Source: Desulfosudis oleivorans Hxd3 (GTDB lineage: Bacteria > Desulfobacterota > Desulfobacteria > Desulfobacterales > Desulfosudaceae). From it: a stretch of 64,000 bases of DNA. Under the pieces are notes generated by a model that did not search any database, had not been told where the DNA came from, and saw only the letters and a list, made by a program, of their open reading frames with translations. The stretch is taken from assembly GCF_000018405.1 (NCBI RefSeq), contig NC_009943.1:3227001-3291000 (forward strand), given 5' to 3'. Shown here piece after piece: positions 2,914-60,158 of the stretch; position 1 is the stretch's first letter, and each line of letters starts with the position of its first letter. The position numbers and the translations under genes are program-made.

Positions 2914-3123
2914 TCTCCGCCCAAACATCAATTCGATAAACACCTTTCGGCGGCGCATACACCAGCGGTAGTGGTCCTCACAGCCAAAACGCAAAGATAT
3001 GGTGGCATGTCTACTGCGACCGGTTTTTCCCTCGATATTGTCCCGGTGATATGGTACTACATTTTCAGTAAATATTTCACTGTGCTTCAATAAACTCCGC
3101 AATCAGGGCGTGGAATCATATTC

Positions 3124-33129: not shown

Positions 33130-34581
33130 TCAACCGTTGAAAGGCCCGGACTCGGAAATGGAAGATTCGGCCCTGTGCTTACTGAATAGTCCCTGAATCA
33201 TGGACATCAGAATCGCCAGAGACCAGGTAGCGCACAGATAGAACTGGGGACGGAGGGGAATTGAATAGCGGGGCCACGGCGCAAACACCATGTAAAGCAG
33301 CGTAAAATAAAGCAACGTAATCAAAACCAGTTGCGGCGAAAGGGTTTGCCGAACCTGGGGAAAGTAGGTCTCTGTTCTCCTTTTAAAAAGGAGCAGCGGC
33401 AGGGCCAGTGCCGCGGTAACCATCAGCCAGGGATGCAGCAACCGCATGGTTGTCGCCATCACACCCAGCAGCGGGGATATCTCTTCCAGCCGGCGGTTTA
33501 CCGGATAGATATAAGCGTCCCCCTTTCCCTGAATGATGCTCCACCGCCACAGGTACAGGGGTTTTTCGAAAAAATACCAGGAAACATAGCGCCACGGCTC
33601 CGCCTTTGCCCGTTGCCAGAGAATGCGGGTAAAATTTTCCATGGAAGATCCGAACGCCGGCTGCTGCGGATCTTCCCGGTAGGGAAAGGGCATGAAGAAG
33701 CGTGTTTTGTAAATAAAGCCGGGATAGGCGCCGTGGCTCAGTGTAGCAATGGCCCTATCCGTCCCCCGTGCCGCAACGGGCGGCAGCAGGACGTGGGACC
33801 GGAACATCCAGACGCATGGAAAAATCGCGAACACCAGCACAAAAATTCGCAGACCCCGTTTCATAGCACGGCGATAATCAGAATCTTCATAGCGATTTAA
33901 ACGCCACCGAATGGCCGCCGCGATGATAAAGGGCAGGAACAGGACCGTTTCATTAACCAGGTAGGCACAGCCGAACAACAGCGCGGATACTGGTAAAACA
34001 CGAACGGTTCCACGGATGGCCCACTGAAAGGCGCACAGTCCGGCCAGCAGGCAGAAAGCGAACAGGGTCTCACTCAGCATACATCCACCCACGGAAATCA
34101 GATGGGGGCTGAAGGCGGTCAATAGGCCGGCCGTCACCGCCGCCGCGGGATGGAGAAAAAAAACGCCGAGCGCGTAGGTAAGGGGCGTTAGCAGAGCCCC
34201 GGCCACCTGCTGGACCGTTAGCGCGTTTTCTAAAAACCGTTGTTCGCCGGAAATTCGCAGCACCAGGGACAGCAGCAATGGATATCCCGGGGACCGGAAG
34301 GCATCAGGCGCGGCAGCGGCGATGCCGGGCGGGGCTTTTGAAAAAACATTAAAATAAGCCAGGTTGCGTGCATAGTTGAGATATTCGCCAGCGTCACGCT
34401 GCATAAAAACATTGCTGTGATTGGCCTGCAGAAAGGCAAGACGGATCGTCAGGGCCATGATAAAAAGCAGGCCCATGGCCGTCACATGCACAACAACCTT
34501 TCTGAAATGACTGGAATTGGTCACGTAGGCCTTGTCAACAATATTTTTGCCGGCCGAAGAGCTCCCTGGAAGGAAATTCAA
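33130..34581 (-). CDS. GT39/ArnT-like membrane glycosyltransferase
   Basis: A 483-residue polytopic membrane protein with about ten hydrophobic segments. The first periplasmic loop carries the acidic motif QRDAGEYLNYAR, placed as in the dolichyl-phosphate-mannose and ArnT-type GT-C families, followed by RSPGYPLLL. Such enzymes move a sugar from a lipid carrier to a protein or glycan outside the membrane. The substrate is unknown. It is the last core gene; its start lies 8 bp from the tRNA-Glu scar that begins the island. The opposite neighbour, the cation ATPase, is convergent. Confidence 0.78.
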   Translation of the reverse strand: MNFLPGSSSAGKNIVDKAYVTNSSHFRKVVVHVTAMGLLFIMALTIRLAFLQANHSNVFMQRDAGEYLNYARNLAYFNVFSKAPPGIAAAAPDAFRSPGYPLLLSLVLRISGEQRFLENALTVQQVAGALLTPLTYALGVFFLHPAAAVTAGLLTAFSPHLISVGGCMLSETLFAFCLLAGLCAFQWAIRGTVRVLPVSALLFGCAYLVNETVLFLPFIIAAAIRWRLNRYEDSDYRRAMKRGLRIFVLVFAIFPCVWMFRSHVLLPPVAARGTDRAIATLSHGAYPGFIYKTRFFMPFPYREDPQQPAFGSSMENFTRILWQRAKAEPWRYVSWYFFEKPLYLWRWSIIQGKGDAYIYPVNRRLEEISPLLGVMATTMRLLHPWLMVTAALALPLLLFKRRTETYFPQVRQTLSPQLVLITLLYFTLLYMVFAPWPRYSIPLRPQFYLCATWSLAILMSMIQGLFSKHRAESSISESGPFNG

Positions 34582-34588
34582 TTGTCTG

Positions 34589-34632
34589 TGGTGATCCCAG
34601 GGGGAATCGAACCCCCGTTACCGGCGTGAGAG
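34589..34632 (-). other. tRNA-Glu (CTC) 3' fragment, island attachment site
   Basis: Read on the minus strand: an anticodon-loop remnant CTCTCAC, stem GCCGG, a complete T-arm (GGGGG TTCGATT CCCCC), the acceptor 3' half TGGGATCA and CCA at 34591-34589. The tRNA 5' half is absent. GC-rich core DNA lies to the left and AT-rich DNA to the right. This is the usual scar of an element integrated at a tRNA 3' end; the intact tRNA-Glu should lie at the far end of the island, outside this window. Confidence 0.85.
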
Positions 34633-35116
34633 AAAGCACTTCAAAACATATAAAAGCCTATAATTTAAAGATCTTGTTAAATTTTCAGGTAATTACAACA
34701 AGAGTATTTATAAAAATTTATGATAAAAAATTTTAAAATGCCAGTATTAATTTTCATCTTTCACTCAGTTTTTCACTCAACTTCATTTCACGACACCTCC
34801 CGGTAAATCTCTGCCAAGTATAGTCGGATAAACGTCCATTTGTTTTTCTATCTCTATCATCTGTACTCGGAAAAACTTATCACCGGCTGAAGCCTCTGCC
34901 TAATTTTAGCCACCCACATAATGCCGACTTTCTGGAAAAATGACAATAAAAGATTTGAAATCAAAAATCCATTTTGAATTTTATCTTTAACTCCAGAACG
35001 TCGAAACTAACCACTTGAATCGTTTGACAATACCATCAGGTCCTGTATCCTGATTACAGTTCAAGAATGTGTGAAGGAATCATTCCAAAACCGCAACTTA
35101 AATAAGGAGGATCAGG
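34633..35116. other. Left end of island A, non-coding
   Basis: 484 bp with no gene. TTTCAC recurs at 34759, 34771 and 34786 (the first two as TTTCACTCA), which may be recombinase arm-type sites. The rest is plain AT-rich sequence up to the promoter at 35024. Confidence 0.45.
35024..35051 (+). promoter_or_regulatory. Sigma-70 promoter of the island replication genes
   Basis: The -35 box TTGACA (35024-35029), a 16-bp spacer and the -10 box TATCCT (35046-35051) lie 65 bp before the first island gene. Confidence 0.65.
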
Positions 35117-35782
35117 ATGACAAAGCAACACAAAAAACGAGAGTATTACGTCCAGGAAATTAAGGACATAGAGGCAAGGGTGATACCGGTAGAAGGTAAC
35201 CTAGTTGAACTTCGGCATGAACAAGGTTCGGTGGCCAACACGATCCAGCAAATCACGAAGGAAACGGGCTTAGATGATTTCGAAGAGTATATTCAAGAAC
35301 AACTGCCTGAAATGTCCTTCCGTACCATCCAGCGTTACATGCAAATAGCAACATATGTCGATATAAAAAACCATCCGCAACTCTGCTGCCTTGGTACGAC
35401 ACGGCTGTTAGACCTCATGGCAAAGGAAAAGGATAAAGACGTTGTTTCAATTTTACAGAAGAATAAATTAAAAATTCCAACACGAACGGCCACACCAGAC
35501 CAGCAAAAACAGTTTCGGAACAAGATCGACCGCCTTATAAATCGCAAAAAACAAAAAGGTGGAACCGGGAAAAAGAAAAAAACCGATACCGTTCAGGAGA
35601 AAGGGAAGACAGATAACAAGGCCACCATTGTCAAGCAAGCCAGTGCCGCAATAGACCTTTTAATAAAACATTCAGGCATTATCAAGAAGGAAGGTCTTTA
35701 TACGGAATTAGATCTCAATCGGATGCAGGAACTCCAGAAACGGATTAACTATTTTATAAGACACATAAACGATGAGGCTTGA
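35117..35782 (+). CDS. DUF3102-like small regulator of the replication module
   Basis: A 221-residue soluble protein, rich in Lys and Gln. Residues 40-95 (TKETGLDDFEEYIQE to MSFRTIQRYMQIA) resemble the DUF3102-type helical segment found in plasmid and phage proteins near partition or replication genes. The middle is a charged linker (KKQKGGTGKKKKT) and the end is helical. AATAAGGAGG is a strong ribosome site. It is 36 bp upstream of the primase gene on the same strand, so a replication-accessory or copy-control role is likely but not shown. Confidence 0.6.
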   Translation: MTKQHKKREYYVQEIKDIEARVIPVEGNLVELRHEQGSVANTIQQITKETGLDDFEEYIQEQLPEMSFRTIQRYMQIATYVDIKNHPQLCCLGTTRLLDLMAKEKDKDVVSILQKNKLKIPTRTATPDQQKQFRNKIDRLINRKKQKGGTGKKKKTDTVQEKGKTDNKATIVKQASAAIDLLIKHSGIIKKEGLYTELDLNRMQELQKRINYFIRHINDEA

Positions 35783-35818
35783 TAAGCCCATGCAAACGAA
35801 TAAAAAGGAGATAACATT

Positions 35819-38059
35819 ATGAAACACAACGATAAATGGCAAGCCGTGAAACAATATTATAAAAAAGGATGGCCTATTTTCCCCCTGCACACCATTAAAG
35901 ACGGGAAATGCTCTTGTGACAAGCCTACATGCACAACACCTGGTAAACATCCTATGTATGATGCCGAGGATCTGACTGAAGGGTTTAAAAACGCCTCCAG
36001 CAGCCAACAACAATTAAAAAAATGGTGGTCGAGATGGCCAGATGCGAACATCGGTATCAGGACGGGGAAGGAGAGTTTTATAGCGATAGATATCGATCTG
36101 CCTGATGGCCCCGATAACATGAAAAAGCTTGAAAAAACATATGGCAATCTACCCAAAACGGTCAACCAAAAAACCGGTGGGGGAGGATACCAGCTATTTT
36201 TTAAACCACCGCACACCCGTATCCCATGTAAAACTGGTCTACTGGGCAATATTGATATCCGGGGCGAAGGAGGATACGTGGTAGCTCCTCCCTCTGACCA
36301 TATAAAAAACAAAAAATATAAATGGAGACATAGCCCTGACAGTATAGAGATAGCCGGTATGCCTGAATGGTTGACTGACCTTATTGAAAAAGGGGAAAAG
36401 TATTGTGATCTTGTCCACTCGTTAAAAAAAATACCTGAAGGTAAAAGAAACGACACGCTAGCAGAAATTGCCGGTAGCCTGCGAGGGGAAGGACGTGAGT
36501 TGGATGAGATCCATGGAGTCCTTCGTAAAGCCAATAAAAATAGGTGTACCCCTGCCCTAGAAGATGACGAGGTTAAAAAGATTGCAGAGAGTATTTCATC
36601 TTATCCCCCCAATGCATCGACTTCAGATAATAAAAACAAAAACGCCAAAACTGCTCAATTCAATAAATTTATTGAGACCTTTTTTGAGAAAAACGAGATA
36701 TTGCAGGATACCAATAGTGGTTTCTTCTACGCAATTATTAACGGTGAAGGAGGCGAGCAGGTATTAGATACCAGATCTGATAACTTTAAACGCCACTGCC
36801 GATCTTCAATCCGAAAAAGCAGTGATGCCCTTATCTCCCGCCAAGACATTGATCTGATCATTGATCATCTGGAAGCCAATGCTGTTGATCAGAATAAAAA
36901 AGGTGAAGTCTCTATAAGGATAGCTAGGGTTGATAACACCATTTATTTGGACCTGGCAGATGAAAAAAAGCAAGTTGTCAAAATAACATCTGAAGGCTGG
37001 ACAATTTGTCAAGAAACGCCAGTCCACTTTTACCGCCCTCAAGGAATGCTTCCCCTCCCCGTACCTGTGGAAGGTAAAGGCTTTGCAAAATTGAAGCATT
37101 TTCTTCCTGCTGGCAAACAGCATAAGCATACATGTAGACTCATACTGGCCTGGCTTGTTGGTGCTCTGAACCCTCAGGGGCCATATGTGGCATTAATACT
37201 AACCGGCCCCAAAGGCTCATCAAAAAGCACCTTGACTGAATTTTTAAAATTTTTGATTGACCCAGCAAAAGCGACCACAAGAGCATTATCTGGGAATGAA
37301 GAGACCTTGATGATATATTGCAAAAACAACTGGCTGGTGTCTTTTGACAATCTTTCTGTTTTATCCCAACCAATGTCTGATGCTCTTTGTCGTGTCAGTA
37401 CGGGAGGCGGTCTTTCAAAAAGAAAGCAGTACACGGATGATGAAGAGTATGTTTTTCAAGCCAATCGTCCAATAATCATGAATGGAATAAATAATTTTAT
37501 TAAAGCTGATGATTTAGTCGATAGGTCACTGATAATTGAACTGCCTTTTATTGATGACGCTAAACGCTTAACAAAAAAACGGTTGAATCAGGAATTTCAG
37601 GAAGCGCAACCATTGATCTTAGGCTCTCTCTTAAAAGCGGTCTCTTCAGCATTAAAAAATGAAAACATCAAGATTGATGTCCCTTTGCCACGCATGAGTG
37701 ATTTTGCGAGTTGGGTATGTGCTGCCGAAGAAGCCTTACCATGGAAAGGTAAAAAATTTTTAACTGACTATAACACCCATCTCAATAAGAATTTATCAAA
37801 GACATATCTTGAAAATCCCATTGTTTATTGTATAAAAAACTTCCTTGAGAAATGTAAAGATAAGCGGTGGGAAGGCAATGCAACAGATTTGGTTAATCAG
37901 TTAAAGAAAGCTTTCCCTGAAAAAAGCGCAGTTATCCCTAAACCCAACAAAATTCAACAAGAGATAGGAGCTTTTCCCGCCGCCCTTAACCATTTTAATA
38001 TAAAATTTAATAAGAAGAGGACATCTGAGAACAGATTAATAACATTAGAGATTAAATGA
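35819..38059 (+). CDS. Prim-pol primase/helicase replication protein
   Basis: A 746-residue replication protein. The N-terminus is a bifunctional primase-polymerase (prim-pol) domain, with Cys-rich CSCDKPTCTTPGKHP, metal-binding IAIDIDLPDG near residue 87 and GGGGYQLFF near 120. A PriCT-like segment (RNDTLAEIAGSLRGEG) follows near 220-270. The C-terminal half is a phage-type helicase ATPase, with Walker A LTGPKGSSKST near 465 and NRPIIMNGINNF as sensor-like block. Such fusions drive replication of satellites, integrative elements and plasmids. The stop codon is inside the left arm of the inverted repeat at 38057-38178, the likely origin. Confidence 0.85.
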   Translation: MKHNDKWQAVKQYYKKGWPIFPLHTIKDGKCSCDKPTCTTPGKHPMYDAEDLTEGFKNASSSQQQLKKWWSRWPDANIGIRTGKESFIAIDIDLPDGPDNMKKLEKTYGNLPKTVNQKTGGGGYQLFFKPPHTRIPCKTGLLGNIDIRGEGGYVVAPPSDHIKNKKYKWRHSPDSIEIAGMPEWLTDLIEKGEKYCDLVHSLKKIPEGKRNDTLAEIAGSLRGEGRELDEIHGVLRKANKNRCTPALEDDEVKKIAESISSYPPNASTSDNKNKNAKTAQFNKFIETFFEKNEILQDTNSGFFYAIINGEGGEQVLDTRSDNFKRHCRSSIRKSSDALISRQDIDLIIDHLEANAVDQNKKGEVSIRIARVDNTIYLDLADEKKQVVKITSEGWTICQETPVHFYRPQGMLPLPVPVEGKGFAKLKHFLPAGKQHKHTCRLILAWLVGALNPQGPYVALILTGPKGSSKSTLTEFLKFLIDPAKATTRALSGNEETLMIYCKNNWLVSFDNLSVLSQPMSDALCRVSTGGGLSKRKQYTDDEEYVFQANRPIIMNGINNFIKADDLVDRSLIIELPFIDDAKRLTKKRLNQEFQEAQPLILGSLLKAVSSALKNENIKIDVPLPRMSDFASWVCAAEEALPWKGKKFLTDYNTHLNKNLSKTYLENPIVYCIKNFLEKCKDKRWEGNATDLVNQLKKAFPEKSAVIPKPNKIQQEIGAFPAALNHFNIKFNKKRTSENRLITLEIK

Positions 38060-38178
38060 CGATAGTGACAGTAGTGACGATTATTGATGGTACTTTTTTT
38101 ATTTTATTATTATTTTTAAAATATATATAAATTAAAAAAACTTACTATTTTTTATCGTCATAACCGTCACTACTGTCA
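38057..38178. other. Putative replication origin of island A
   Basis: A perfect 14-bp inverted repeat, TGACAGTAGTGACG (38066-38079) and CGTCACTACTGTCA (38165-38178), flanks 85 bp that are almost entirely A and T. TGACGAT elements at 38057 and, inverted, at 38154 extend the symmetry. Position right after the replication gene plus an AT-rich unwinding-like core fit an origin. Function is inferred. Confidence 0.55.
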
Positions 38179-38259
38179 TTCTCTTAGTTCTAAAGGATTT
38201 TAAGGTATCTAAAAATGTATTTAGTTAAGAACAAGAATTTACCTTAAGAATAAATACGG

Positions 38260-38333
38260 AGAGGGGGTGCCAGGTATGGCCTATTTCTCGTGATCCTTTT
38301 CGTAGATAACAACCGCCTGTACCATAGATACGA
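38260..38333 (-). pseudogene. Remnant copy of the papain-fold gene 3' end
   Basis: Read on the minus strand, one frame gives SYLWYRRLLSTKRITRNRP. It aligns with the C-terminus of the protein at 38928-39443 (DSYYEKLWHRRKMSTKRISI and following). The frame is closed upstream by a stop. DNA similarity extends over about 60 bp. It is a decayed partial duplicate. Confidence 0.55.
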
Positions 38334-38374
38334 TTATTGCTTTCTCAGGTGTTTTTTCTGGAATAATATGGGAA

Positions 38375-38902
38375 TCAACACCATTCAAAATAGCAGAAAC
38401 CGATTCTCCTTTCTCCATTTTGATAATCCGCAAAAGAATAGGTCGCTCCAGTAAAATCTTTGGATTCGTATATTTTCCCGACCTCAAAATACGGATGTTC
38501 TTGACCATCCCCAATGAATTTCAACTTCCTTGTGCATGGCCTGACTTCAAAGATCCTTTCAGCTAGTTCCGGTAAAATAAAAGATAGGATTTTATCAACT
38601 GTTCTTGCTCTAAAACGATAGCATTCATCTACTGCCGCCCAAAGCACTTCGTCATATTTTTGTTCGTCTCGAAACCCCTCATATTGATCCTTCCCTAGGG
38701 TAAGGTTGCATCCACCTAAAACACATGATCTATCAATATTGGCAAAACGTAATGATGAAAAAGGATCGTTCTTATCAAAAAAGTCAGGGTCAAAATGATT
38801 AATGATTTTAACAACGGTTTCTTCCTCTATTTCAGGCGTTATTTTCTTTGCCTCGGTTAATATTTCTTGAAACTTTTCGACTTTATGGTTTTGATTTTTC
38901 AA
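38375..38902 (-). CDS. Hypothetical protein, last gene of the small-gene operon
   Basis: A 175-residue soluble protein of no family I recognise. It is acidic, with several Cys (SCVLGGCNLTLG, RPCTRKLKF). Start ATG 38902 follows GGAGG. It lies 25 bp after the papain-fold gene on the same strand. The end, GFCYFEWC, is abrupt. In another frame the DNA stays open past 38375 to 38281, so a frameshift that shortened the protein is possible but unproven. Confidence 0.6.
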   Translation of the reverse strand: MKNQNHKVEKFQEILTEAKKITPEIEEETVVKIINHFDPDFFDKNDPFSSLRFANIDRSCVLGGCNLTLGKDQYEGFRDEQKYDEVLWAAVDECYRFRARTVDKILSFILPELAERIFEVRPCTRKLKFIGDGQEHPYFEVGKIYESKDFTGATYSFADYQNGERRIGFCYFEWC

Positions 38903-38927
38903 AATAAACCTCCCTAAATGAAATGAT

Positions 38928-39443
38928 TTACCCTAAAAAGAAAGAATGTGTAGGTGCTACCAAGTATGGCCTGTTTATAGATATTCTTTTCGTAGACATC
39001 TTCCTTCTATGCCATAGTTTTTCATAATAAGAGTCCATCAAGTAAAAAGTCTTGGGAGTTGCTTTCACCACAACACTCCAGTGTCCTTCAGCGTTTTCGC
39101 AGTCTATGCCTGCCAACACAGCTCTTCCTGGGACTTCCAAGAAAGTAACGACATAATCCCAGTAACAACCTAAAGATACATCCTTTCTTTTGTGAAAAGG
39201 CCTTGTGCTTTTAATGCCGTACTGGATATCAACAATCTCGTTAAAGATGTTTATCAGTACGGGTAAAGAAGAGCCTTCTTTTACAATGGTTGAGAGCTTT
39301 CTTTTCTTTTCGGCTAGGCGCAAACACTTATAAAACAACTCTTCCGACTCTTCAGTGTTTAACTTTTTAATATATCTGACAGAGTTTACGATACTATAGA
39401 TACCGCATAATCCGTCTAAATCCCCTTGCCTGTATGGTTTCAT
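38928..39443 (-). CDS. Papain-fold (cysteine peptidase-like) protein
   Basis: A 171-residue protein with the order expected of a papain-like cysteine peptidase or transglutaminase fold: Cys13 in DLDGLCGIYSIVN, His121 in EGHWSVVV and Asp137 in FYLMDSYY. The length fits a bare catalytic domain with no signal peptide, so it acts in the cytoplasm or is delivered. The start ATG overlaps the stop of the upstream 54-residue gene (ATGA), which implies translational coupling. Peptidase, deamidase or acyltransferase activity are all possible. Given the operon it may be an effector or a maturation enzyme; both ideas are inference. Confidence 0.6.
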   Translation of the reverse strand: MKPYRQGDLDGLCGIYSIVNSVRYIKKLNTEESEELFYKCLRLAEKKRKLSTIVKEGSSLPVLINIFNEIVDIQYGIKSTRPFHKRKDVSLGCYWDYVVTFLEVPGRAVLAGIDCENAEGHWSVVVKATPKTFYLMDSYYEKLWHRRKMSTKRISINRPYLVAPTHSFFLG

Positions 39444-39604
39444 AGCGTTTCAATTAGGTTCAGTATTTCCGGTAGCATGTGCAAACCAGCTTTATTTGCT
39501 TGGTTTCGGAGGTCAGCTTGACGGCAGGTGAATTCAATATTTATGTCGTGACCGAAAACAAGGCCTTCTGCCAAATCAAGCTCAAAACCATAGTTTACGT
39601 TCAT
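39440..39604 (-). CDS. Small coupled protein of 54 residues
   Basis: ATG 39604 has a strong GGAGG ribosome site seven bases upstream. The product starts MNVNYGFELDLAEGLVFGHD and ends LNLIETL. Its stop TGA overlaps the start of the papain-fold gene, and its start is one base after the upstream stop. The tight coupling on both sides supports a real gene. Family unknown; a partner or substrate peptide of the papain-fold protein is one possibility. Confidence 0.7.
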   Translation of the reverse strand: MNVNYGFELDLAEGLVFGHDINIEFTCRQADLRNQANKAGLHMLPEILNLIETL

Positions 39605-40777: not shown

Positions 40778-41410
40778 TTACCACAACCCGTTTATTTGCT
40801 GCTGAATATCCTCCTTTGTAACATCTGCGTATATCTGTGTTGTTTGTATCGATGCATGCCCAAGTTGTTTCTGAACTGCTCTCAAATCACGTTTCTTTCG
40901 ATAGAGCTGAACAGCATAACTGTGTCTTAAAGCATGCACACTTTTGCCCCTTTCATACAAACCAAGCTTCTTTAGATACTTTTTAACAAGCTGCTGAATT
41001 GCCTGAGCAGTCCAAGGCCCTCTCTGGCCAACAAATAAATAGTTGCTTGGGCCTATCCTTTCTTGTTGCTCCTTTTTCCATTTTAAGTACTGGTTGAGGT
41101 GTGTTTTGAGGGATTGGGGGATTTCAACCGTTCTTGAACGCCCACCCTTCCCTCGACTCACAAAGACTTCACATTGCCCGTAACCAGCCTTTAGATCCCC
41201 ACAACGGAGATTGGATACTTCTTCAACCCTTAAGCCGGTACTGGTTATAAGGTCAATTACCATCCATTCTCGGATACCGGTTTTATTTTTTTTGCTCTGA
41301 TCGGCAACAGCCTTATCTTTGACGGTTCGCCTCAACAGCCTAACCTGGGCTTCTGTGAAATACTTTATGTCCATAATAGCTCTCAAATTCATAATAACCA
41401 TGCGATGCAT
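40778..41410 (-). CDS. Tyrosine recombinase, catalytic domain only
   Basis: A 210-residue XerC/D-family recombinase with all key residues visible: Arg61 in TSTGLRVEEV, the beta-hairpin Lys region GKGGRSRTVEIP, HALRHSYA, LGHASIQTTQ and the nucleophile Tyr in IYADV. It begins right at the catalytic domain, without the usual N-terminal core-binding domain of about 100 residues and without an arm-binding domain. ATG 41410 follows AGGAG. It may serve integration, dimer resolution or inversion. It is not next to either tRNA scar, so it may not be the island integrase. Confidence 0.82.
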   Translation of the reverse strand: MHRMVIMNLRAIMDIKYFTEAQVRLLRRTVKDKAVADQSKKNKTGIREWMVIDLITSTGLRVEEVSNLRCGDLKAGYGQCEVFVSRGKGGRSRTVEIPQSLKTHLNQYLKWKKEQQERIGPSNYLFVGQRGPWTAQAIQQLVKKYLKKLGLYERGKSVHALRHSYAVQLYRKKRDLRAVQKQLGHASIQTTQIYADVTKEDIQQQINGLW

Positions 41411-41438
41411 ATTTAACTCCTGCCCTATAAAACACAAA

Positions 41439-41467
41439 AGCCGCTACGACATTTCTGTCGTGCGGCT
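41439..41467 (-). promoter_or_regulatory. Leader hairpin of the recombinase gene, copy 2
   Basis: On the minus strand, AGCCGCACGACA pairs with TGTCGTAGCGGCT (one bulge) and is followed by TTTTGTGTTTTA. It lies between the promoter at 41499-41527 and the ribosome site. It looks like an intrinsic terminator inside a leader, so an attenuator is possible. Confidence 0.6.
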
Positions 41468-41498
41468 ATTTGGTAACAATTTCCTTTAATTTTAATAA

Positions 41499-41527
41499 AT
41501 TATACTAAAATTCGGCTATTTTGTCAA
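41499..41527 (-). promoter_or_regulatory. Consensus sigma-70 promoter of the recombinase
   Basis: On the minus strand, a perfect TTGACA (41527-41522), a 17-bp spacer and a perfect TATAAT (41504-41499). The sequence from here to the leader hairpin is repeated at 42898-43003. The rest of the gap to 41767 has no gene. Confidence 0.85.
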
Positions 41528-41767
41528 GTTAAAAAGTGTCAATATTGTTCAATATTTCAATGTGTTATAATATTTTTTCCGCAAGAAAAGCCTAAATATA
41601 GTCGAAATTGGGGATTTCAGGGCCGGAAGCCAATTTTTGACGACGGCAATCGGTTTTTTGTTCAACTGGGACCGTCAAACTGCCTGACAACTCTGGGAGG
41701 GTTTTTGAGACGATTTTTATCATTTTTGAGTTCTTCATAAAATATGCGGGTTAAATACTGTTCTTTC

Positions 41768-42823
41768 TCATAAGCCATAGGAGACAGGTATCTCACAACA
41801 AATGTGTTTATAAAACATTTCATAATCATCACCATATCTTTTGGATAATTTAATAAATCGACAGAGATTGATCTTGTCATTCCCTGTAAGATTGCATTTT
41901 CCCATCAGGTACAATGGAAGTATAGTTCGTATATCATCTATTGAATGGATAAAAAAAGTTACCCCCTCGAATCTATATATTCTTTCTGTTGCTTTTCTCT
42001 GGAGCCATAAATCCATTCCATCAAAAAAAGGAACTCCTGACGGAGAAGTTAAAATGAGTTTTTTTAAGCAATCATAATGGATATGCAATTTAGAAAGATA
42101 ACAAACGCTAAAATATAAAGCCCGAAAAGCCAAATCGAATATCACCCGTTCTTCTTTTGGTGTGCTCATAATGGGATCATAGACAACACCTGTACCTGAA
42201 AGAATTTCCTCAATGTATTGAGAATCACTTTTTTTTGAGTCACCATCCTGCAACCACCATAAAACATAACAATTTAAAATAAATGCACATTCTTTGGATA
42301 AATCGGCTTGATTCAGGAAAGTGTGCCACTTATCCTGATTGAAATATGTTTCTGCTTGATAAAGTGGATAAAAAAAACGAATATTTGGAAATCGCTTTTC
42401 GGCTTTCTGCATCGGATCATCTGAATCCCATCTATTTAAGTTGTAACAGGTTTGCAAGTGAGGTAAAAAAGATGCAATTCGGTTCAAAGTTTCAATCCGG
42501 CAGGTAGTCCCAAAGCTTTCACACACTATTGATTTTAGAATCCAATCATTGTGCAAAAGGCTGTCATAGTTGGTTGAATCTACCCCATGATCTATAAGAA
42601 TTTCTAATAAACGACATAAAATAATATGTGAATTTAATCGTTTTAATTTGTCTTTTTCTGTTTTTTCAGAATCAACAATCAAAGAAAGCACTGTATGAAT
42701 GCCCTGATTCAGATCGACTGTTTCCTGAATATAAAAATCCGAAAGAATTAGGTTCTCTTCGGTAAATTCTTCCCCTAATAAAAGATGCTTAACTCCAATA
42801 GATTCAATACAATAACCGCACAT
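41768..42823 (-). CDS. Hypothetical protein, 351 residues
   Basis: A soluble, Leu- and Cys-rich, mostly helical protein of no family I recognise. Notable stretches are MCGYCIESIGVKHLLLGEE at the start and ICCEIPVSYGL at the end. There are no signal peptide and no catalytic motif that I can defend. It has its own consensus promoter and leader hairpin nearly identical to those of the recombinase gene, so both may share a control circuit. The DNA is AT-rich like the rest of the island. A cargo gene is likely. Confidence 0.65.
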   Translation of the reverse strand: MCGYCIESIGVKHLLLGEEFTEENLILSDFYIQETVDLNQGIHTVLSLIVDSEKTEKDKLKRLNSHIILCRLLEILIDHGVDSTNYDSLLHNDWILKSIVCESFGTTCRIETLNRIASFLPHLQTCYNLNRWDSDDPMQKAEKRFPNIRFFYPLYQAETYFNQDKWHTFLNQADLSKECAFILNCYVLWWLQDGDSKKSDSQYIEEILSGTGVVYDPIMSTPKEERVIFDLAFRALYFSVCYLSKLHIHYDCLKKLILTSPSGVPFFDGMDLWLQRKATERIYRFEGVTFFIHSIDDIRTILPLYLMGKCNLTGNDKINLCRFIKLSKRYGDDYEMFYKHICCEIPVSYGL

Positions 42824-42916
42824 AATCTTGTATTCCCTCCCTCTATATCATGGGCCGAAAAATCTTTGCATCAATCTTGGTAAATCAAAGAAACGCCTGC
42901 CCCATAAACGCAAAAA

Positions 42917-42940
42917 GCCACACGGCAATAGTCGTGCGGC
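42917..42940 (-). promoter_or_regulatory. Leader hairpin, copy 3
   Basis: On the minus strand, GCCGCACGAC pairs with GCCGTGTGGC (one wobble, one mismatch) around a TATT loop and is followed by TTTTTGCGTTTA. It lies between the promoter at 42972-43000 and the 351-residue gene. Confidence 0.55.
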
Positions 42941-42971
42941 AAATAATAAAAATTGTGTATATTTTTAACTA

Positions 42972-43000
42972 ATTATACTAAAAACAGGCTGTTTTGTCAA
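42972..43000 (-). promoter_or_regulatory. Consensus sigma-70 promoter of the 351-residue gene
   Basis: On the minus strand, TTGACA, a 17-bp spacer and TATAAT, both boxes perfect. It is a copy of the promoter at 41499-41527. The remaining gap to 43158 holds no other signal that I can name. Confidence 0.85.
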
Positions 43001-43158: not shown

Positions 43159-43497
43159 TTATAAAATATCGTCGAGGAATATTTTTATCTTTTTCAGTTT
43201 GGCGGCACCGGCATTATTTAAAATCTGGGAAACTTTTACAGAGATAGACTCCCTTTCTGTACTCAGCTTATCGTCTGGGTTCAAAAATTGAAACAACGCT
43301 GCCAAGGAGACATCAAATATTTCACACAGCTTGTTAAGGGTTTCTAGGGATGGATTTATCTCTCCCCTCTCCAGCCTGCCATAGTATCGATAATTAAAGC
43401 CATGCTTCTTTTCAATATCTTCCTGCTTAAGATTTTTAGCAAGACGCAGTTCTTTCAGGCGGATACCCAGTCGTTTTTTCAGAAGTTCATTATCCAT
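43159..43497 (-). CDS. XRE-family repressor-like regulator
   Basis: A 112-residue DNA-binding protein. The Cro/CI helix-turn-helix spans residues 10-68: LGIRLKELRLAKNLKQEDIE, then YYGRLERGEINPSLETLNKLCEIF. A short helical tail may dimerise. It is divergent from the small membrane protein gene at 43688, and two palindromes lie in the gap between them. It probably controls itself and the divergent gene. Typical of phage or island maintenance control. Confidence 0.88.
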   Translation of the reverse strand: MDNELLKKRLGIRLKELRLAKNLKQEDIEKKHGFNYRYYGRLERGEINPSLETLNKLCEIFDVSLAALFQFLNPDDKLSTERESISVKVSQILNNAGAAKLKKIKIFLDDIL

Positions 43498-46375: not shown

Positions 46376-47812
46376 ATGGCCAGACGAATAGAAAATGAAG
46401 GTCTTTACAACACAATTAAGTTGTTTTTTGAGAAGTGTCTACTGGAGGATAAATCTCTCTTATGGCCTGATCAAAACTATTGGACTTTGGATAATGTGAA
46501 GTCATTAAAACGGCGCCTGATTGATTCCCCGTTACTTGGAAAGACTCTTGCCTTTGAAGAGAAGCTTGAAAAGCAAATGGATGGTGCGTCTCCTTCTGAA
46601 TGGGCGATTATTTGTGACATCTATTTTGTTTATTTCCTTCCCTCCATAAATATTACTCTGGATAAAATACGCAAAGATATAAGCTGGGCTGCATCACACG
46701 CAAGGGTTACCCCTCCGGTAGAATCAGACCCCATTTGGCAGGTACAACGCCATGGTTTTTCACGCACTGCATTTAAGTACCATACTAAATATAGCCAGTT
46801 CTGGTTTATTGTTCTTTTTACTCTGCATATTAAAGAACAAGAATCAGCCCAGAGTATCATTTCAGATCATACTGCAATGAAAAATGCTATGGATATGGTA
46901 TTGGAAAATATAGAACTCTGCAATGACCGAGGATATGATATGCGTCACGCCATACTTTATATGGCGTTTCCAGACTACTATGAGAGGATTATCAGTACAA
47001 GAGACAAGAAATGGATCGTTGATGCCTATCGAAAGAAAGTTGCCCTCCCGGTCCCTGCCGATTTAGATGACGCCATACTTTTGATTCGCAATGCTTTGAA
47101 GAAAGAGTACGACAAATCAGATCGCCAGTTTGATTTTTATACGGACCTTAAAGATGGATGGCGACCAAATACATCCGCATCGAAGGTGGACATTACTGTT
47201 GATACTGATAAAGGACCAGTAACCGTTCCACCTCCTGAGCCGGAGTCAGACACTGCAACAGATACAAAAAAAGAACACACCGAACATACAGAAATTCAGT
47301 GGATGCTGCTTAATCTTGGCAATGATATGGGGCTTGATCTTTGGGTGGCAAACAATGATCGCAATAAAGAGATCAATAACCAGCGCCTGGGGGACCTCCC
47401 GAGAGTAAAAAAATCCCTCCCCTTAACCTTCGATGAAGCGACCAACAAAACAATTCAGCTTATAGATGTGTTGTGGTTGAAACAGAACACTATTCTGGCG
47501 GCATTTGAGATTGAAAGTACAACTTCAATTTATTCTGGTATCCTCAGAATGGCTGATTTAATCGCAATGCAACCCCATATTAATATTCCGCTTTACATAG
47601 TGGCCCCAGATGAGCGACGTGAGAAAGTATATGCTGAAGTGAACCGTCCTGTTTTTTCCAGCCTGTCTACCCCGATGAACCAGATATGTAAATACATTCC
47701 TTTCTCAGGGCTGAGAAGCACCATCAAAAATACTGCTTCGATGACCAAGTACCTGAAGCCAGAATTTCTTGATGAAATTGCGGAAGATTGTGAAGTTGAT
47801 CAGAATGAATAA
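46376..47812 (+). CDS. Candidate PD-(D/E)XK nuclease-like defence protein
   Basis: A 478-residue cytoplasmic protein. The N-terminal 250 residues are helical (WAIICDIYFVYFLPSINITL, KYHTKYSQFWFIVLF) and may bind DNA or a partner. The C-terminal 170 residues contain HTEIQWMLLNLGNDMGLDLW, Asp364 in LIDVLWLK and E378-I-E380 in AAFEIEST, with SIYSGILRMADL after it. That order fits a restriction-endonuclease-like fold with an ExE instead of ExK. I recall similar uncharacterised proteins in mobile elements, but can give no name. It is a single gene, not paired with a methylase. Restriction-like action is inferred. Confidence 0.65.
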   Translation: MARRIENEGLYNTIKLFFEKCLLEDKSLLWPDQNYWTLDNVKSLKRRLIDSPLLGKTLAFEEKLEKQMDGASPSEWAIICDIYFVYFLPSINITLDKIRKDISWAASHARVTPPVESDPIWQVQRHGFSRTAFKYHTKYSQFWFIVLFTLHIKEQESAQSIISDHTAMKNAMDMVLENIELCNDRGYDMRHAILYMAFPDYYERIISTRDKKWIVDAYRKKVALPVPADLDDAILLIRNALKKEYDKSDRQFDFYTDLKDGWRPNTSASKVDITVDTDKGPVTVPPPEPESDTATDTKKEHTEHTEIQWMLLNLGNDMGLDLWVANNDRNKEINNQRLGDLPRVKKSLPLTFDEATNKTIQLIDVLWLKQNTILAAFEIESTTSIYSGILRMADLIAMQPHINIPLYIVAPDERREKVYAEVNRPVFSSLSTPMNQICKYIPFSGLRSTIKNTASMTKYLKPEFLDEIAEDCEVDQNE

Positions 47813-51920: not shown

Positions 51921-51965
51921 TGGTGCCCCCGGCAGGAATCGGACCTGCGGCACATGGATTAGGAA
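51921..51965 (-). other. tRNA-Arg (CCT) 3' fragment, second attachment scar
   Basis: On the minus strand: the anticodon remnant TTCCTAA with CCT, stem TCCAT, T-arm GCAGG TCCGATT CCTGC, acceptor GGGGGCA and CCA at 51923-51921. The tRNA 5' half is missing. The T-loop has C where U55 is universal, so it is degenerate. GGGGGACCA-type direct repeats lie 50-70 bp to the left (51855-51877). This fits an att site of another element. Confidence 0.75.
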
Positions 51966-52236: not shown

Positions 52237-53196
52237 TCAGTTCCCATCACTCACGCCCCATTGAAATCTTTCCGCAATAAGTGCATCTAAAATATCATCT
52301 ACGGATGATTTGATTTCCCGTATGCGTTGATATTTTTTCAACGCATCCTTTACAAGAGAAACACCTTCTGGATTAAATGCGTAAAAAACTAAACCGACTC
52401 CCGCGAGATCCGCAGCCAGCGTCTGGAGTATTGTCATTATTGTACGGTTCCCACCAAAAGCTCCACATCCCCAGAATCCCGTATGAATAATTGTATTTGG
52501 GGAGGATGCTTTAAGATGATGGCTTTCCTGGCGCGCAGCCGTATAACCCGTATAGGCGGCCGTCAGGACATATGCCATATCATTCATACCGTAGTCCCCC
52601 ATACCATATTCTGGAGCAGCCATAGCTAGAATGTTGCTGATAGAAGGTGGGTTGATCAGCCTGGTGGCATTCAAAACATCTTCCTTGGCAGCAACCGCAA
52701 AAGCATTGCCATATAAACCATGGCGTGTATCAACGGCGCAACATCGCTGTACTCCGGATATTGTAACCGGTGTCGGGCTGCCCTCCTCATTCACCGTTTC
52801 AGGACAATACCCCATGTCGTCTAGGGCCTCCCGCAAAGATCCGAGTACAGGATGTTCAAGAACCTGAAGTTCATCCTGAGCAAGGAGGGAGGAATCGTAT
52901 GCGATGAACAGGTGCCGATCTGCAAAGTTCATGTGCCAGTCTACGTCAGTATCATTCGAGGAAAGGGGGTAAGTGAATCTTTCTGCCTGGATTCTGGGCA
53001 TCGCCAGTGCTTCAACCGACCCGGGAATTTGCGCTGCCAGCCATCTGGTATATTCGACCTGACCTTTAAACTCACAGTTTGCAGAACAAATCAGATCAAA
53101 AACCGCTTGTTTGTTGGGATGTCCCCACTTTGGCGGATACTCTTTGATGAGCAGATCGGTTTGGAAAATTTTTTTATCAAGAGATATCAGGTTCAT
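52237..53196 (-). CDS. Divergent poly(ADP-ribose) glycohydrolase (PARG-like)
   Basis: A 319-residue PARG-family macrodomain protein. The block HTGFWGCGAFGGNRTIMTIL (239-258) followed by LAADLAGVGLVFYAF is the PARG ADP-ribose-binding core. NFADRHLF and AQDELQVLEHPVLG (106-119) correspond to the catalytic loop, where QEE is usual; here it is Q107-D108-E109, so the second Glu is kept. The Gly triplet that normally precedes it is missing (YDSSLL instead). It may be a hydrolase with altered specificity or only a binder. The ATG abuts the stop of the HhH-like gene (TAAATG), so the two are translationally coupled. Confidence 0.8.
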   Translation of the reverse strand: MNLISLDKKIFQTDLLIKEYPPKWGHPNKQAVFDLICSANCEFKGQVEYTRWLAAQIPGSVEALAMPRIQAERFTYPLSSNDTDVDWHMNFADRHLFIAYDSSLLAQDELQVLEHPVLGSLREALDDMGYCPETVNEEGSPTPVTISGVQRCCAVDTRHGLYGNAFAVAAKEDVLNATRLINPPSISNILAMAAPEYGMGDYGMNDMAYVLTAAYTGYTAARQESHHLKASSPNTIIHTGFWGCGAFGGNRTIMTILQTLAADLAGVGLVFYAFNPEGVSLVKDALKKYQRIREIKSSVDDILDALIAERFQWGVSDGN

Positions 53197-54297
53197 TTAG
53201 GTTGATCCTCCGGTGCTTTCATATTTCCATATTTCGTGGTCCAATTCACGTAGCGTTAATTCAGGGTAAGTTTCTTTGAGAATCTCCAATGCTTGTGACA
53301 GCAGCAACTGGGCATCTGAAAGACTCAAATCAATTCCGGTTATTTTTGTCAAAAATATTCTAATCCACCTATCCGGCTTGATCAGATTTTTTTCACCAGC
53401 AAGCATAAAAAAGTATTTTAAGGATATCCCGGATCTCTGACCAGGAATTAAACAAATGGCCGATTCAAAACGATCGCTTTTGATGACCGCCGGTATATCT
53501 TGATAGTAATTGACATGATGGTCCATCAGAACACGGGCAAACCTATGCACGGCCTCAGCTTTAAGAATACCATTTCTCGAGGAGGTTCTTTGTCTGTTGT
53601 TGAATACGTCCTCTGCAACCAAGGAATAGTCGTCATATCCAGATAATAATTTTTCAAAATCTGCTATCGAATATTGCTCTGATATATCCGGATATGGCGA
53701 ACCGTGTGCCCTTAATTTATGCAGGTTCTGTCTGTTGCAGAAATATTGTACGGTATTTCTTGTTCCGGTGTACGTCACACCAATAGAATAAACTGCGTCA
53801 ACAATACAAAAAGGCAGACTGTGATAGAAGTATTCTTCGCTTAGCCGCGCATCTTGAAGGTTCAGCTTTTTCAAGCAGTATTGTGCTATTTTTTCAGCCG
53901 TTGTAATCGAATTCCCTCCTGAATCATCCGGTCTGCACTGTACTTTATCCCTTGATGACAAAGAGTCCATTCGCTTCTCCTTACCTTTGTTTATGAAGTT
54001 ATGATCCCGACCCATACTCTCATCCAAAGCCTTGCAGTACATTCCAATGCGAGTTCTGTTGCAGTTATAATAATACCCCCAGCAACACGTATAGGATCGC
54101 GCATACTCCTTGTTTTCTTGCCTAAAAACAATTACCTGTTCACCGGCATGTTCCCCTTTCTTTGAGACATCGGCTTTTGTCGTAAAAAAAGTGCCTTGTG
54201 ATGTTTTCAATTTTACCCTGTTGTTGTGCTTAAGCCAGTTGTAGGCTGAAGAAAAAGAATGGTTTAAATCTACGATACCATCATGCGATTCATTCAT
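53197..54297 (-). CDS. HhH-glycosylase-like protein with extra N-terminal domain
   Basis: A 366-residue protein. Residues 1-100 form a small Cys/Trp/Tyr-rich module (SYTCCWGYYYNCNRTRIGMY). Residues 130-360 are helical with AVYSIGVTYTGTRNTVQYFC and CLIPGQRSGISLKYFFMLAG, then IKPDRWIRIFL and LRELDHEIWKYE. The IPGQRSGIS stretch sits like the hairpin of endonuclease III-type HhH glycosylases, though the hairpin is unusual. An internal ATG at 53970 (residue 110, MDSLSSRDK) has AAGGAG seven bases upstream, so a shorter product lacking the N-terminal module may also be made. It is coupled to the PARG-like gene downstream. A role on modified DNA is inferred. Confidence 0.6.
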   Translation of the reverse strand: MNESHDGIVDLNHSFSSAYNWLKHNNRVKLKTSQGTFFTTKADVSKKGEHAGEQVIVFRQENKEYARSYTCCWGYYYNCNRTRIGMYCKALDESMGRDHNFINKGKEKRMDSLSSRDKVQCRPDDSGGNSITTAEKIAQYCLKKLNLQDARLSEEYFYHSLPFCIVDAVYSIGVTYTGTRNTVQYFCNRQNLHKLRAHGSPYPDISEQYSIADFEKLLSGYDDYSLVAEDVFNNRQRTSSRNGILKAEAVHRFARVLMDHHVNYYQDIPAVIKSDRFESAICLIPGQRSGISLKYFFMLAGEKNLIKPDRWIRIFLTKITGIDLSLSDAQLLLSQALEILKETYPELTLRELDHEIWKYESTGGST

Positions 54298-57304: not shown

Positions 57305-60115
57305 ATGACTAAAACAGAGGCCCAAACCCGATCCGAACTTATCGATAAGCATCTGGCGCAATCGGGCTGGAATGTCAAAGACCCTATGCAGGTGGTTGAA
57401 GAGTTCGATATTTTGATGGCCCTCCCCGAAGGTATTGCCGAACCGCGCACCCCATACGAAGGGCATCAGTTCAGTGATTACGTGTTGCTTGGGAAAGATG
57501 GCAGACCGCTTGCCGTCGTAGAAGCTAAGAAGTCCAGCAAAGATGCCGCCATCGGCCGGGAACAAGCCAAACAGTACTGTTATAACATCCAAAAGCAGCT
57601 CGGTGGAGAATTGCCATTCTGCTTTTATACCAATGGCCTTGAAACCTATTTCTGGGACTTGGACAATTATCCGCCGCGCAAGGTCGTGGGCTTCCCCACT
57701 CGTGATGACCTGGAGCGGTTCCAATATATCCGCCGCAACCACAAGCCACTGACTCAGGAGCTGATCAACACCGCCATCGCCGGACGTGATTACCAGATCC
57801 GTGCCATCCGAGCAGTATTGGAAGGAATCGAGCAAAAGAAACGCGACTTCCTGCTGGTGATGGCTACCGGCACCGGCAAAACGCGCACCAGCATCGCCAT
57901 GGTCGACGCCCTGATGCGGGCAGGCCATGCCGAAAAAGCGCTGTTTCTAGTCGACCGCATTGCCCTTCGGGAACAGGCACTGGCCGCTTTTAAGGAACAC
58001 CTTCCCCACGAGCCCCGCTGGCCCAACGTCGGCGAAAAGCTGATCGCCAAGGACCGCCGCATATATATCTCAACCTATCCCACCATGCTCAACATCATCC
58101 GGGATGAGTCGCAGTATCTTTCGCCGCATTTCTTTGATTTTATCGTCATCGATGAAAGTCATCGTTCCATTTATAACACTTACGGCGAAATTCTCGACTA
58201 CTTCAAAACCATCACCCTGGGATTGACGGCAACACCCACCGACATCATCGACCATAACACTTTCCGGATTTTTCACTGTGAAGACGGTCTTCCCACCTTT
58301 GCGTATACTTTTGAGGAAGCTGCCAACAACGTGCCGCCGTACCTTTGTAGTTTTCAGGTGATGAAGATTCAGACCAAGTTCCAGAAAGAAGGGATCAGCA
58401 AGCGCACCATCTCGTTGGAGGATCAGAAAAAACTACTGCTGGAAGGTAAGGATGTTGCAGAGATTAACTTTGAAGGCACACAACTTGAAAAGACAGTCAT
58501 CAACAAGGGCACCAATACGCTGATTGTCAAGGAGTTCATGGAAGAGTGCATCAAGGATCACAATGGTGTTATGCCCGGCAAGACCATCTTTTTCTGTTCA
58601 ACCATAGCCCATGCCCGGCGTATGGAGGATATTTTCGACAAACTTTATCCCCAGCACAAAGGCGAACTGGCCAAAGTTTTGGTTTCCGAAGACCCGCGTG
58701 TTTACGGCAAGGGAGGGCTGCTTGACCAGTTTACCAATAGCGATATGCCCCGTGTCGCCATCAGCGTTGACATGCTTGATACCGGCATTGATGTACGCGA
58801 AATTGTTAACCTGGTCTTTGCCAAACCGGTCTATTCTTATACCAAGTTCTGGCAGATGATCGGGCGCGGCACCCGTCTGCTGGAAATCGCCAAGCCCAAA
58901 CCCTGGTGCATTGAAAAAGATGTTTTCCTGATTCTCGATTGCTGGGACAATTTTGAATATTTCAAGCTCCAACCAAAAGGCAAGGAGCTTAAGCAGCAAC
59001 TGCCCCTTCCGGTGCGTCTGGTGGGCTTGCGTCTCGACAAGATCGAAAAGGCCACCGACACTGCTCAAACAACGATCACCGAGCGCGAAATCGGAAAATT
59101 TCGCAAGCAGATAAGCGAGTTGCCGCAAACTTCCGTGGTTATCAAGGAAGCTGCCGCCGCGCTGGCCCGGCTTGAAGAAGAAAATTTCTGGATCACTCTC
59201 AACCATCAGAAGCTGGAATTCCTGCGTGCCGAGATCAAGCCCCTGTTCCGGACCGTGTCCGAGGCAGACTTTAAGGCCATGCGTTTTGAGCGCGATCTGC
59301 TGGAATATTCCCTGGCCCGATTGCGCCAAGAGAAAGAAAAGGCTGAAACCCTCAAGGCTGGAATCGTCGAGCAAATAAGCGACCTGCCGTTATCCGTCAA
59401 TTTTGTCAAAGCCGAGGAAACACTGATTCGTGCTTCCCAGACCAATCACTACTGGGCCAAGCAAGACTCCATTGAAACAGAGAACGCTCTGGATGAGCTG
59501 AACACCCGCCTTGGCCCCCTGATGAAATTTCGCGAGCAGGACACCGGCCCCGGCCCCATGAATCTGGACCTGACCGATACCTTGCACCATAAAGAGTGGG
59601 TAGAGTTCGGTCCGCAACACGAGGCGGTAAGCATCAGTCGCTACCGTGAGATGGTCGAGGCGCTGATCGCCGAGCTGACCGAACATAACCCCGTGCTGTT
59701 GAAGATAAAGAACGGCGAAGCGGTGACGCCGGATGAAGCCAATGCCCTGGCCGAACTACTCCATACCGAGCATCCGCACATTACCGAGGATTTACTGCGT
59801 CAGGCCTACAAGAACCGCAAGGCTCATTTTATTCAGTTTATCCGTCACATCCTCGGCATCGAAATTTTGAAGACCTTTCCTGAAACGGTCAGCGAAGCGT
59901 TTGAGCAGTTTATCCAGCAGCACAGCAGCCTCAGCAGCCGGCAGCTGGAGTTTTTGAACCTGCTCAAAAATTTTATCATCGAACGCGAAAAGGTGGAAAA
60001 GAAAGACCTGATAAACTCCCCCTTTACGGTCATTCACCCGCAAGGAATTCGCGGCGTTTTCAGCCCGGCGGAAATCAACGAAATATTACAACTTACCGAA
60101 AGGGTGGCAGCCTGA
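57305..60115 (+). CDS. hsdR: Type I restriction enzyme, R subunit
   Basis: Motor and nuclease subunit of a type I restriction system, 936 residues. The PD-(D/E)XK nuclease is at the N-terminus: Asp58 in GHQFSDYVLL, Glu73 and Lys75 in LAVVEAKK. The SF2 translocase has Walker A VMATGTGKTRT (near 190), a DEAD-type box IVIDESHRS, TLGLTATPT and the arginine-finger motif MIGRGTRL. The C-terminal helical part binds the methylase core. Length and order resemble the EcoAI-like group. It cuts unmodified DNA after ATP-driven translocation. First in the operon hsdR-hsdM-hsdS-ATPase; all motifs are intact. Confidence 0.95.
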   Translation: MTKTEAQTRSELIDKHLAQSGWNVKDPMQVVEEFDILMALPEGIAEPRTPYEGHQFSDYVLLGKDGRPLAVVEAKKSSKDAAIGREQAKQYCYNIQKQLGGELPFCFYTNGLETYFWDLDNYPPRKVVGFPTRDDLERFQYIRRNHKPLTQELINTAIAGRDYQIRAIRAVLEGIEQKKRDFLLVMATGTGKTRTSIAMVDALMRAGHAEKALFLVDRIALREQALAAFKEHLPHEPRWPNVGEKLIAKDRRIYISTYPTMLNIIRDESQYLSPHFFDFIVIDESHRSIYNTYGEILDYFKTITLGLTATPTDIIDHNTFRIFHCEDGLPTFAYTFEEAANNVPPYLCSFQVMKIQTKFQKEGISKRTISLEDQKKLLLEGKDVAEINFEGTQLEKTVINKGTNTLIVKEFMEECIKDHNGVMPGKTIFFCSTIAHARRMEDIFDKLYPQHKGELAKVLVSEDPRVYGKGGLLDQFTNSDMPRVAISVDMLDTGIDVREIVNLVFAKPVYSYTKFWQMIGRGTRLLEIAKPKPWCIEKDVFLILDCWDNFEYFKLQPKGKELKQQLPLPVRLVGLRLDKIEKATDTAQTTITEREIGKFRKQISELPQTSVVIKEAAAALARLEEENFWITLNHQKLEFLRAEIKPLFRTVSEADFKAMRFERDLLEYSLARLRQEKEKAETLKAGIVEQISDLPLSVNFVKAEETLIRASQTNHYWAKQDSIETENALDELNTRLGPLMKFREQDTGPGPMNLDLTDTLHHKEWVEFGPQHEAVSISRYREMVEALIAELTEHNPVLLKIKNGEAVTPDEANALAELLHTEHPHITEDLLRQAYKNRKAHFIQFIRHILGIEILKTFPETVSEAFEQFIQQHSSLSSRQLEFLNLLKNFIIEREKVEKKDLINSPFTVIHPQGIRGVFSPAEINEILQLTERVAA

Positions 60116-60158
60116 TATGCCCTTTGGCGAGCAACCAGGAACAAGGAATTTATAACCC

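Follow-up and report, generated by a model that had tools for sequence, protein, structure and literature searches.

A candidate iteron-type replication origin directly behind a PrimPol-helicase gene in an integrated island of Desulfosudis oleivorans Hxd3

In phage-inducible chromosomal islands (PICIs) primase and helicase, which are sometimes fused, are followed at once by the replication origin, which is located 3' of rep and is drawn for the E. coli PICIs always with two sets of iterons around an A+T-rich region; a PICI rep-ori segment maintained a plasmid, and the organisation is said to occur in no other known bacterial replicon (PMC6092414). In the Staphylococcus aureus pathogenicity islands (SaPIs) the origin follows immediately after the helicase gene, whose product recognises it through its C-terminal domain (PMC7581432). 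The archaeal plasmid pRN1 encodes PrimPol, helicase and winged helix in a single protein, orf904, and a 100-bp stem-loop behind this gene is essential, the authors stating that there are no iterons (PMC4234260). Here we analyse a stretch of 64,000 nucleotides of Desulfosudis oleivorans Hxd3 (NC_009943.1, positions 3227001-3291000, of a single-contig genome of 3,944,167 bases), called the window throughout, in which an integrated island encodes a 746-aa PrimPol-helicase protein with an array of 9-bp iterons starting at its stop codon. Judged from the sequence, the array at 38057-38178 is, with a probability of about 0.82, the replication origin of the island and the 746-aa protein just before it the initiator. 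This reading is based on the iteron anatomy in the window and on arrays at the corresponding position in 53 of the 88 relatives, and the best description of the locus is a well-formed iteron-origin candidate with its initiator, close in anatomy to pRN1 and to PICI/SaPI-like elements. Its parts are the following:

35819-38059, plus strand: 746-aa protein with PrimPol, PriCT_1, a predicted D5/SF3-type helicase and a C-terminal domain, presumed replication initiator
38057-38083, plus strand: three tandem 9-bp iterons, TGACGATAG TGACAGTAG TGACGATTA, the first TGA being the stop codon
38084-38151, no strand: spacer of 68 bp, 91% A+T, presumed melting region
38152-38178, minus strand: three tandem 9-bp iterons in inverted orientation, TGACAGTAG TGACGGTTA TGACGATAA
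38066-38178, no strand: perfect 14-bp inverted arms (38066-38079 and 38165-38178) with their spacer

The iterons abut one another in two sets of three with the consensus TGACRRTWR, iteron 1 starting with the TGA stop codon of the 746-aa gene (38057-38059). An earlier note on this DNA had described perfect 14-bp inverted arms around 85 bp of nearly pure A and T, overlapping the stop codon. The arms and their distance of 85 bp are confirmed, but they constitute only parts of the two three-iteron arrays, i.e. iterons 2-3 against the outer two inverted iterons with iteron 1 left out; it is the larger iteron array that overlaps the TGA and not the arms, and the segment between the arms is A+T-rich at 88%, somewhat less than had been stated. 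These arms are the sole perfect inverted repeat of at least 14 bp with a spacer of 20-120 bp in the 64-kb window, and none of 240 dinucleotide shuffles of the 350-bp region contained a perfect 14-bp inverted repeat within 120 bp. Opposed tandem runs of at least 2+2 copies appeared in 2/240 shuffles of the window region and runs of at least 3+2 in 0/240. Scanning the 3.94-Mb genome for two abutting copies with at most one mismatch resulted in six matches, four of which are located at the array (three exact, one with one mismatch); around the other two, with one mismatch each, no array was seen by eye in ~370 bp. A DnaA-box pattern scan of 34500-39500 was negative, and Rfam at gathering thresholds returned only tRNAs for the whole window. 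The anatomy corresponds to an iteron-type theta origin, direct repeats being placed beside an A+T-rich region and next to an initiator gene, and, in terms of anatomy only, to the PICI order of rep followed by an origin in which an A+T-rich region lies between two iteron sets (PMC6092414).

The open reading frames (ORFs) of 221 aa (35117-35782) and 746 aa (35819-38059) are as listed in the earlier note, and the prim-pol/helicase fusion it had proposed for the latter is supported by Pfam for the first half and by model and fold for the second. Pfam assigns residues 12-184 to Prim-Pol (PF09250, E 2.2e-45), matched in the genome by this protein only, and residues 203-264 to PriCT_1 (PF08708, E 5.5e-11). 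The second half, in which a Walker A motif is found at residue 463, has no Pfam match at E 0.01. Residues 300-746 were modelled with a mean predicted local distance difference test score of 90 and a predicted template modelling (TM) score of 0.88, and in a fold search of solved structures the best among the matches listed were the C-terminal region of the NrS-1 phage protein, other D5-type primase-helicases and the SaPI5 primase-helicase, with ~9-15% identity and query TM 0.28-0.50 (SaPI5: query TM 0.40-0.50, 12-15% identity). The best match in a viral library was a protein of an uncultured Caudovirales (TM 0.89, 26% identity). A sequence search of the solved structures gave, among 60 of 120 matches listed, P-loop proteins (mostly ABC transporters) and apolipoprotein and no informative relative. 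The fold matches suggest the second half being a D5/SF3-type helicase, and the secondary structure of the model together with the family pattern suggests the last 80 residues forming a winged helix. The protein would combine a PrimPol of the archaeo-eukaryotic primase (AEP) type, a helicase and a winged helix in one chain as in pRN1-type plasmids, the winged helix being read from the modelled structure. In the PrimPol domain the His of motif II is replaced by Gln at residue 125 (window 36191-36193); in 31 aligned rows, which include duplicates, this position is His in 24, Gln in four (two distinct loci) and another residue or a gap in three. Besides the window, two loci (L015/L047 and L016/L048) have Gln.

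Relatives were searched with the 746-aa protein or its alignment. Matches were obtained in 29 of 395 genomes of a phylum sample and 17 of 389 of a class sample, the own genome being counted in both, and furthermore in genome contigs (63 loci), viral contigs (5), plasmid records (28) and phage records (2, from one phage); a single-protein pattern scan for close relatives returned none in genome contigs or viral contigs. The end of the C-terminal domain was reached in 103 loci, which were reduced to 88, including the window, by dropping L088 as too short and by merging near-identical loci. When copies of a single 7-mer were counted over 260 bp of both strands, in the region from -60 to +700 around the domain end, at least five were found in 42/88 loci, compared to 31/768 other stretches of the same loci and 4/2640 shuffles. 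A search for 9-bp motifs in opposed tandem runs within ~340 bp behind the C-terminal domain, with stretches of the same loci as controls, yielded runs of at least 2+2 copies in 53/88 loci (window included) versus 3/264 controls, at least 3+2 in 43/88 (window included) versus 0/264, and at least 3+3 in 20/88 versus 0/264. The earlier note had proposed to look for the same arms beside related primases: opposed tandem iterons, window included, do stand there in the 53 loci, but not in the others. Neighbouring copies are most commonly spaced by 9 bp (168 cases), followed by 12 bp (34), 10 bp (25) and 11 bp (24), and in 40 of the 53 loci the distance from the domain end to copy 1 is 1-20 bp. Arrays behind the helicase domain are spread over many phyla, and the 53 include two archaeal ones, the plasmid pH6Ac (L141) and a Nitrososphaerales contig (L132). 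With L033, L090 and L101 added by hand to the 53, a total of 56 loci were aligned; the consensus has the core GACG in 37/56 and TGACGAT or TGACGGT in 14/56, window included, counts biased by the TGACGAT seed used for aligning. The orientation of the copies recurs too, most commonly as --- ... +++ and, in full, as ---+++-+++ in L058, L085 and L087 and ---++--+++ in L100. Some control stretches contain other repeats, for example six in L033, beyond the gene, where one 7-mer occurs ten times per 260 bp, perhaps a CRISPR array. Two PrimPol relatives, L046 and L047, of which the second half is unmatched by the helicase profile, have seven-copy arrays (GCCGCCA and AACCGGA) behind the stop codon.

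Counted within 260 bp, most copies are placed within the helicase reading frame in 34 of the 53 loci; a further 14 loci carry them behind the stop codon, as the window does, and in five the copies straddle it. We considered whether the repeats merely reflect repeated amino acids and rejected this: both strands are used, and of 335 spacings inside frames 127 are not divisible by 3. The natural reading of these two observations is selection on the DNA and not on the protein tail. In pH6Ac, an annotated 12-kb archaeal plasmid, the array is located at 4331-4584 within the coding sequence 1608-4982, and a scan of 10 of the 17 plasmid proteins recognised no replication-type gene besides this relative. 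In a limited search of the open-access literature we found no description of an origin nested inside a helicase gene. The position within frames also bears on two other explanations. An inverted repeat right behind a stop codon could terminate transcription of the operon or form a hairpin at the end of its mRNA, an idea to which we give hardly any credence in view of the long loop, the tandem copies within the arms and the location of the array inside the reading frame in most of the 53 relatives. Tandem and inverted 9-mers would also fit repressor or centromere sites, so that the repeats might be operator or partition sites for another island protein, either the 221-aa protein, of which two paralogues are encoded near the two island ends, or the helix-turn-helix protein at 43159-43497. 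Arrays following the helicase domain across many phyla, and mostly inside its frame in 34/53 loci, make this very improbable.

A further alternative is suggested by the pRN1 stem-loop. The window presents pRN1-type anatomy, measured as an arm of 19 with 18 matches and a loop of 75, and hairpin folding of the array strand gives z -6.1, with 0/200 shuffles as good. The functional feature might be a stem-loop, i.e. a cruciform or a nicking structure as proposed for pRN1, the 9-bp periodicity being a by-product. In pRN1, besides the essential role of the 100-bp stem-loop, one stem mutation was tolerated only with the symmetry restored, and no specific origin binding by the initiator was seen by gel shift or footprint (PMC4234260). 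A second group read the region as a rolling-circle origin, each of eight 3-bp loop deletions abolishing replication (PMC3869888), a result that two iteron arms held at a fixed spacing would explain as well. The outer runs of the relatives, being of opposite orientation, could pair as well. However, the relatives have extra copies between the outer runs in both orientations, iteron 1 lies outside the perfect arms of the window, which makes more than one register possible, and Pfam finds no rolling-circle Rep domain in the 746-aa protein. Moreover, the pRN1 and pHEN7 stems themselves consist of two 9-mers per arm, each pRN1 arm being TTATGTCCA-TAGTGTCCA and the left pHEN7 arm GTCACCACT-GTCACAACT. 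A period of 9 with at least 7 of 9 positions matching is present in both arms of pRN1, both arms of pHEN7 and one arm of pRN2; pDL10 has none and pSSVx only one in an A/T tract. Letter shuffles equalled the observed value in 12-52/2000 cases for the pRN1, pHEN7 and left pRN2 arms and in 285/2000 for the right pRN2 arm. We found no published description of this 9-bp make-up of the pRN1 stem in the available text of the two papers (PMC4234260, PMC3869888). Taken together, we regard a stem-loop as the functional feature as unlikely. The window shares with pRN1-type plasmids inverted arms of ~20 bp and an A+T-rich loop just downstream of the gene; unlike it, pRN1 is a free archaeal plasmid with 2 + 2 instead of 3 + 3 copies, and its element is called in print a stem-loop and not an iteron (PMC4234260).

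Several observations weigh against the array being an origin bound by the 746-aa protein. By the 7-mer count the window has three copies only and does not stand out, because its copies differ, and the 9-bp motif search found only two of its three inverted copies, which is why the window is not among the 20 loci with at least 3+3. Its order, +++ ... ---, is opposite in direction to the commonest pattern of the relatives, and shorter. The opposed-run pattern is lacking in 35/88 loci, and of nine named plasmid or phage loci only pH6Ac and a Chlorohelix plasmid (L144) have it at this place. A whole-locus scan detected arrays farther downstream in two Streptomyces plasmids (L148, L149), an unrelated repeat in L146 and, within the stretches scanned, no array in two Methylobacterium plasmids and one Stanieria plasmid (L142, L143, L145). 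The His-to-Gln exchange in the PrimPol domain could reduce priming, which cannot be taken for granted for this domain. The failed binding tests on pRN1 speak against a simple binding model. Finally, the link between C-terminal domain and iteron is weak: across 52 of the 56 aligned loci (L057, L101, L119 and L132 dropped for poor motifs) iteron similarity correlates with the C-terminal domain with Spearman 0.20 (17/2000 permutations) and with the helicase with 0.15 (90/2000), the partial r being 0.14 (50/2000) for the C-terminal domain versus 0.055 (504/2000) for the helicase. We do not claim a recognition code, since the single columns with high z include helicase columns. His at profile column 371 occurs in three loci (L031, L050, L103), all of which have C at iteron column 7, a letter found there in 7/52 loci; this pairing is a lead only toward a winged-helix recognition code.

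Comparison with the other described systems shows likeness in layout and differences in the parts. Like PICIs and SaPIs, the present element is an integrated island with an integrase, in which the primase-helicase gene is followed at once by the candidate origin (PMC6092414), and the SaPI5 primase-helicase is of similar fold. It differs by its AEP-type PrimPol, its 40 kb with defence cargo, its 9-bp iterons with TGAC core and the absence of a recognised packaging or terminase gene, and the SaPI5 fold matches are modest. In Cch2/CCPol of the staphylococcal cassette chromosome SCCmec, the C-terminal domain of the helicase binds repeats just downstream of the gene; the primase there is an A-family polymerase and the repeats have 5 nt (PMC7581432). 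The helicase of the Streptomyces plasmid pFP11 is homologous to the window protein (29%, E 1e-48) and is accompanied by a GGACGCA array, which, unlike here, lies ~550 bp downstream of the helicase gene, PrimPol and helicase being separate genes. In pFP11 and the Streptomyces plasmid pWTY27 the rep/iteron loci are bound by RepA, which we do not assign to a particular ORF of pFP11; the footprint of pWTY27 RepA covers a long inverted repeat that overlaps GTGGGAAC/TTCCCAC copies, and the pWTY27 locus can replicate bidirectionally (PMC3583192). For pWTY27 the likeness is drawn from this description and not from protein comparison.

The replication module is located at one end of an island of 39,882 bp, bounded by 45-bp repeats of a tRNA-Glu gene, to which the following features belong:

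34588-34632, minus strand: attL, 45-bp repeat identical to the 3' part of tRNA-Glu(CTC)
35117-35782, plus strand: 221-aa protein, ORF located 36 bp upstream of the initiator gene
Contig positions 3301470-3301544, about window coordinate 74470, outside the window: complete tRNA-Glu(CTC) gene, carrying the second repeat copy

The G+C content falls from ~57% in the left side of the window to mostly 34-47% between 34 and 57 kb. At the far end of the island a 383-aa tyrosine recombinase gene ends 3 bp ahead of the second 45-bp copy, an integrase adjoining a specific attachment site as in PICIs and phage satellites; this integrase was found at 64% identity in 1/58 kin genomes searched. The island proteins were analysed with Pfam (30 proteins) and PHROGs (10 proteins), several small ORFs being left out. 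Relaxase, mating-pair, capsid, terminase and portal genes were not recognised among the 30, which agrees with the earlier note as to capsid and conjugation genes; relaxase or mating-pair genes would be expected in an integrative conjugative or mobilisable element. Packaging, terminase or capsid-redirecting genes, which are not present in every PICI, were found neither by Pfam nor by PHROGs. The element looks like an integrated island with its own replication module and with ends that appear intact. Of the self-replicating satellite module described earlier, the compact replicon of initiator and adjoining origin candidate in an integrated element stands; the label satellite is not supported, as no terminase, capsid or helper link was recognised in these 40 kb with defence cargo. 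The 221-aa protein had been called DUF3102-like by eye, a label which is not borne out by Pfam up to E 5 or NCBIfam at E 0.01. It has a paralogue of 28% identity near the integrase and the right end of the island (L053:9029-9781); neither of the two matches a credible Pfam or NCBIfam family, and the 221-aa protein matches one PHROG of unknown function (E 0.00098).

The defence cargo (window 57305-63322 and 46376-47812; L053 336-3226) comprises a type I restriction-modification system (R, M, S), a PtuA-like ATPase with a partner matching PDC-M01B/PtuB, and a type II restriction-enzyme-like protein. At 52237-54297 a PARG-like macro-domain protein is encoded beside a 366-aa protein with no credible Pfam family and no PADLOC match, the two possibly being a functional pair. 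A short tyrosine recombinase of 219 aa is encoded on the minus strand in 40778-43000, a region with a 54-bp direct repeat (41474-41527 and 42947-43000, 78% alike), perhaps a smaller nested mobile unit. At 51921-51946 a second fragment resembles a tRNA 3' end; it is 73% alike to part of the attL repeat and is possibly a trace of another insertion.

These data are consistent with a model according to which the island would excise at the tRNA-Glu repeats, recombination between which would bring integrase, attP, 221-aa gene, initiator and origin side by side in this order on a circle. The C-terminal domain, read as winged helix, may bind the 9-bp iterons on both sides, so that two helicase rings could assemble and the A+T-rich segment between them could melt; the helicases would run outward, primed by the PrimPol domain or by a host primase, and the excised island would replicate from this origin as a theta-type replicon.

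The interest of the island replicon lies mainly in the family-wide pattern it exposes. We lean slightly towards the view that bacteria and archaea share one portable module, in which a helicase with a winged helix is combined with a dyad of 9-bp iterons in recurring order, placed directly behind or usually inside its own gene. If true, initiator and origin would travel and evolve together, and compatible replicons could arise by changes of the iteron sequences with their order staying the same. The pRN1 stem-loop would be a reduced member of this module, and a winged-helix recognition code might be readable from sequence alone. The pattern offers a simple route to origins in unannotated islands and plasmids, i.e. 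to search the sequence immediately following the part that encodes the helicase C-terminal domain, even where this is still within the gene, and the about fifty initiator-iteron pairs open winged-helix specificity to direct testing.

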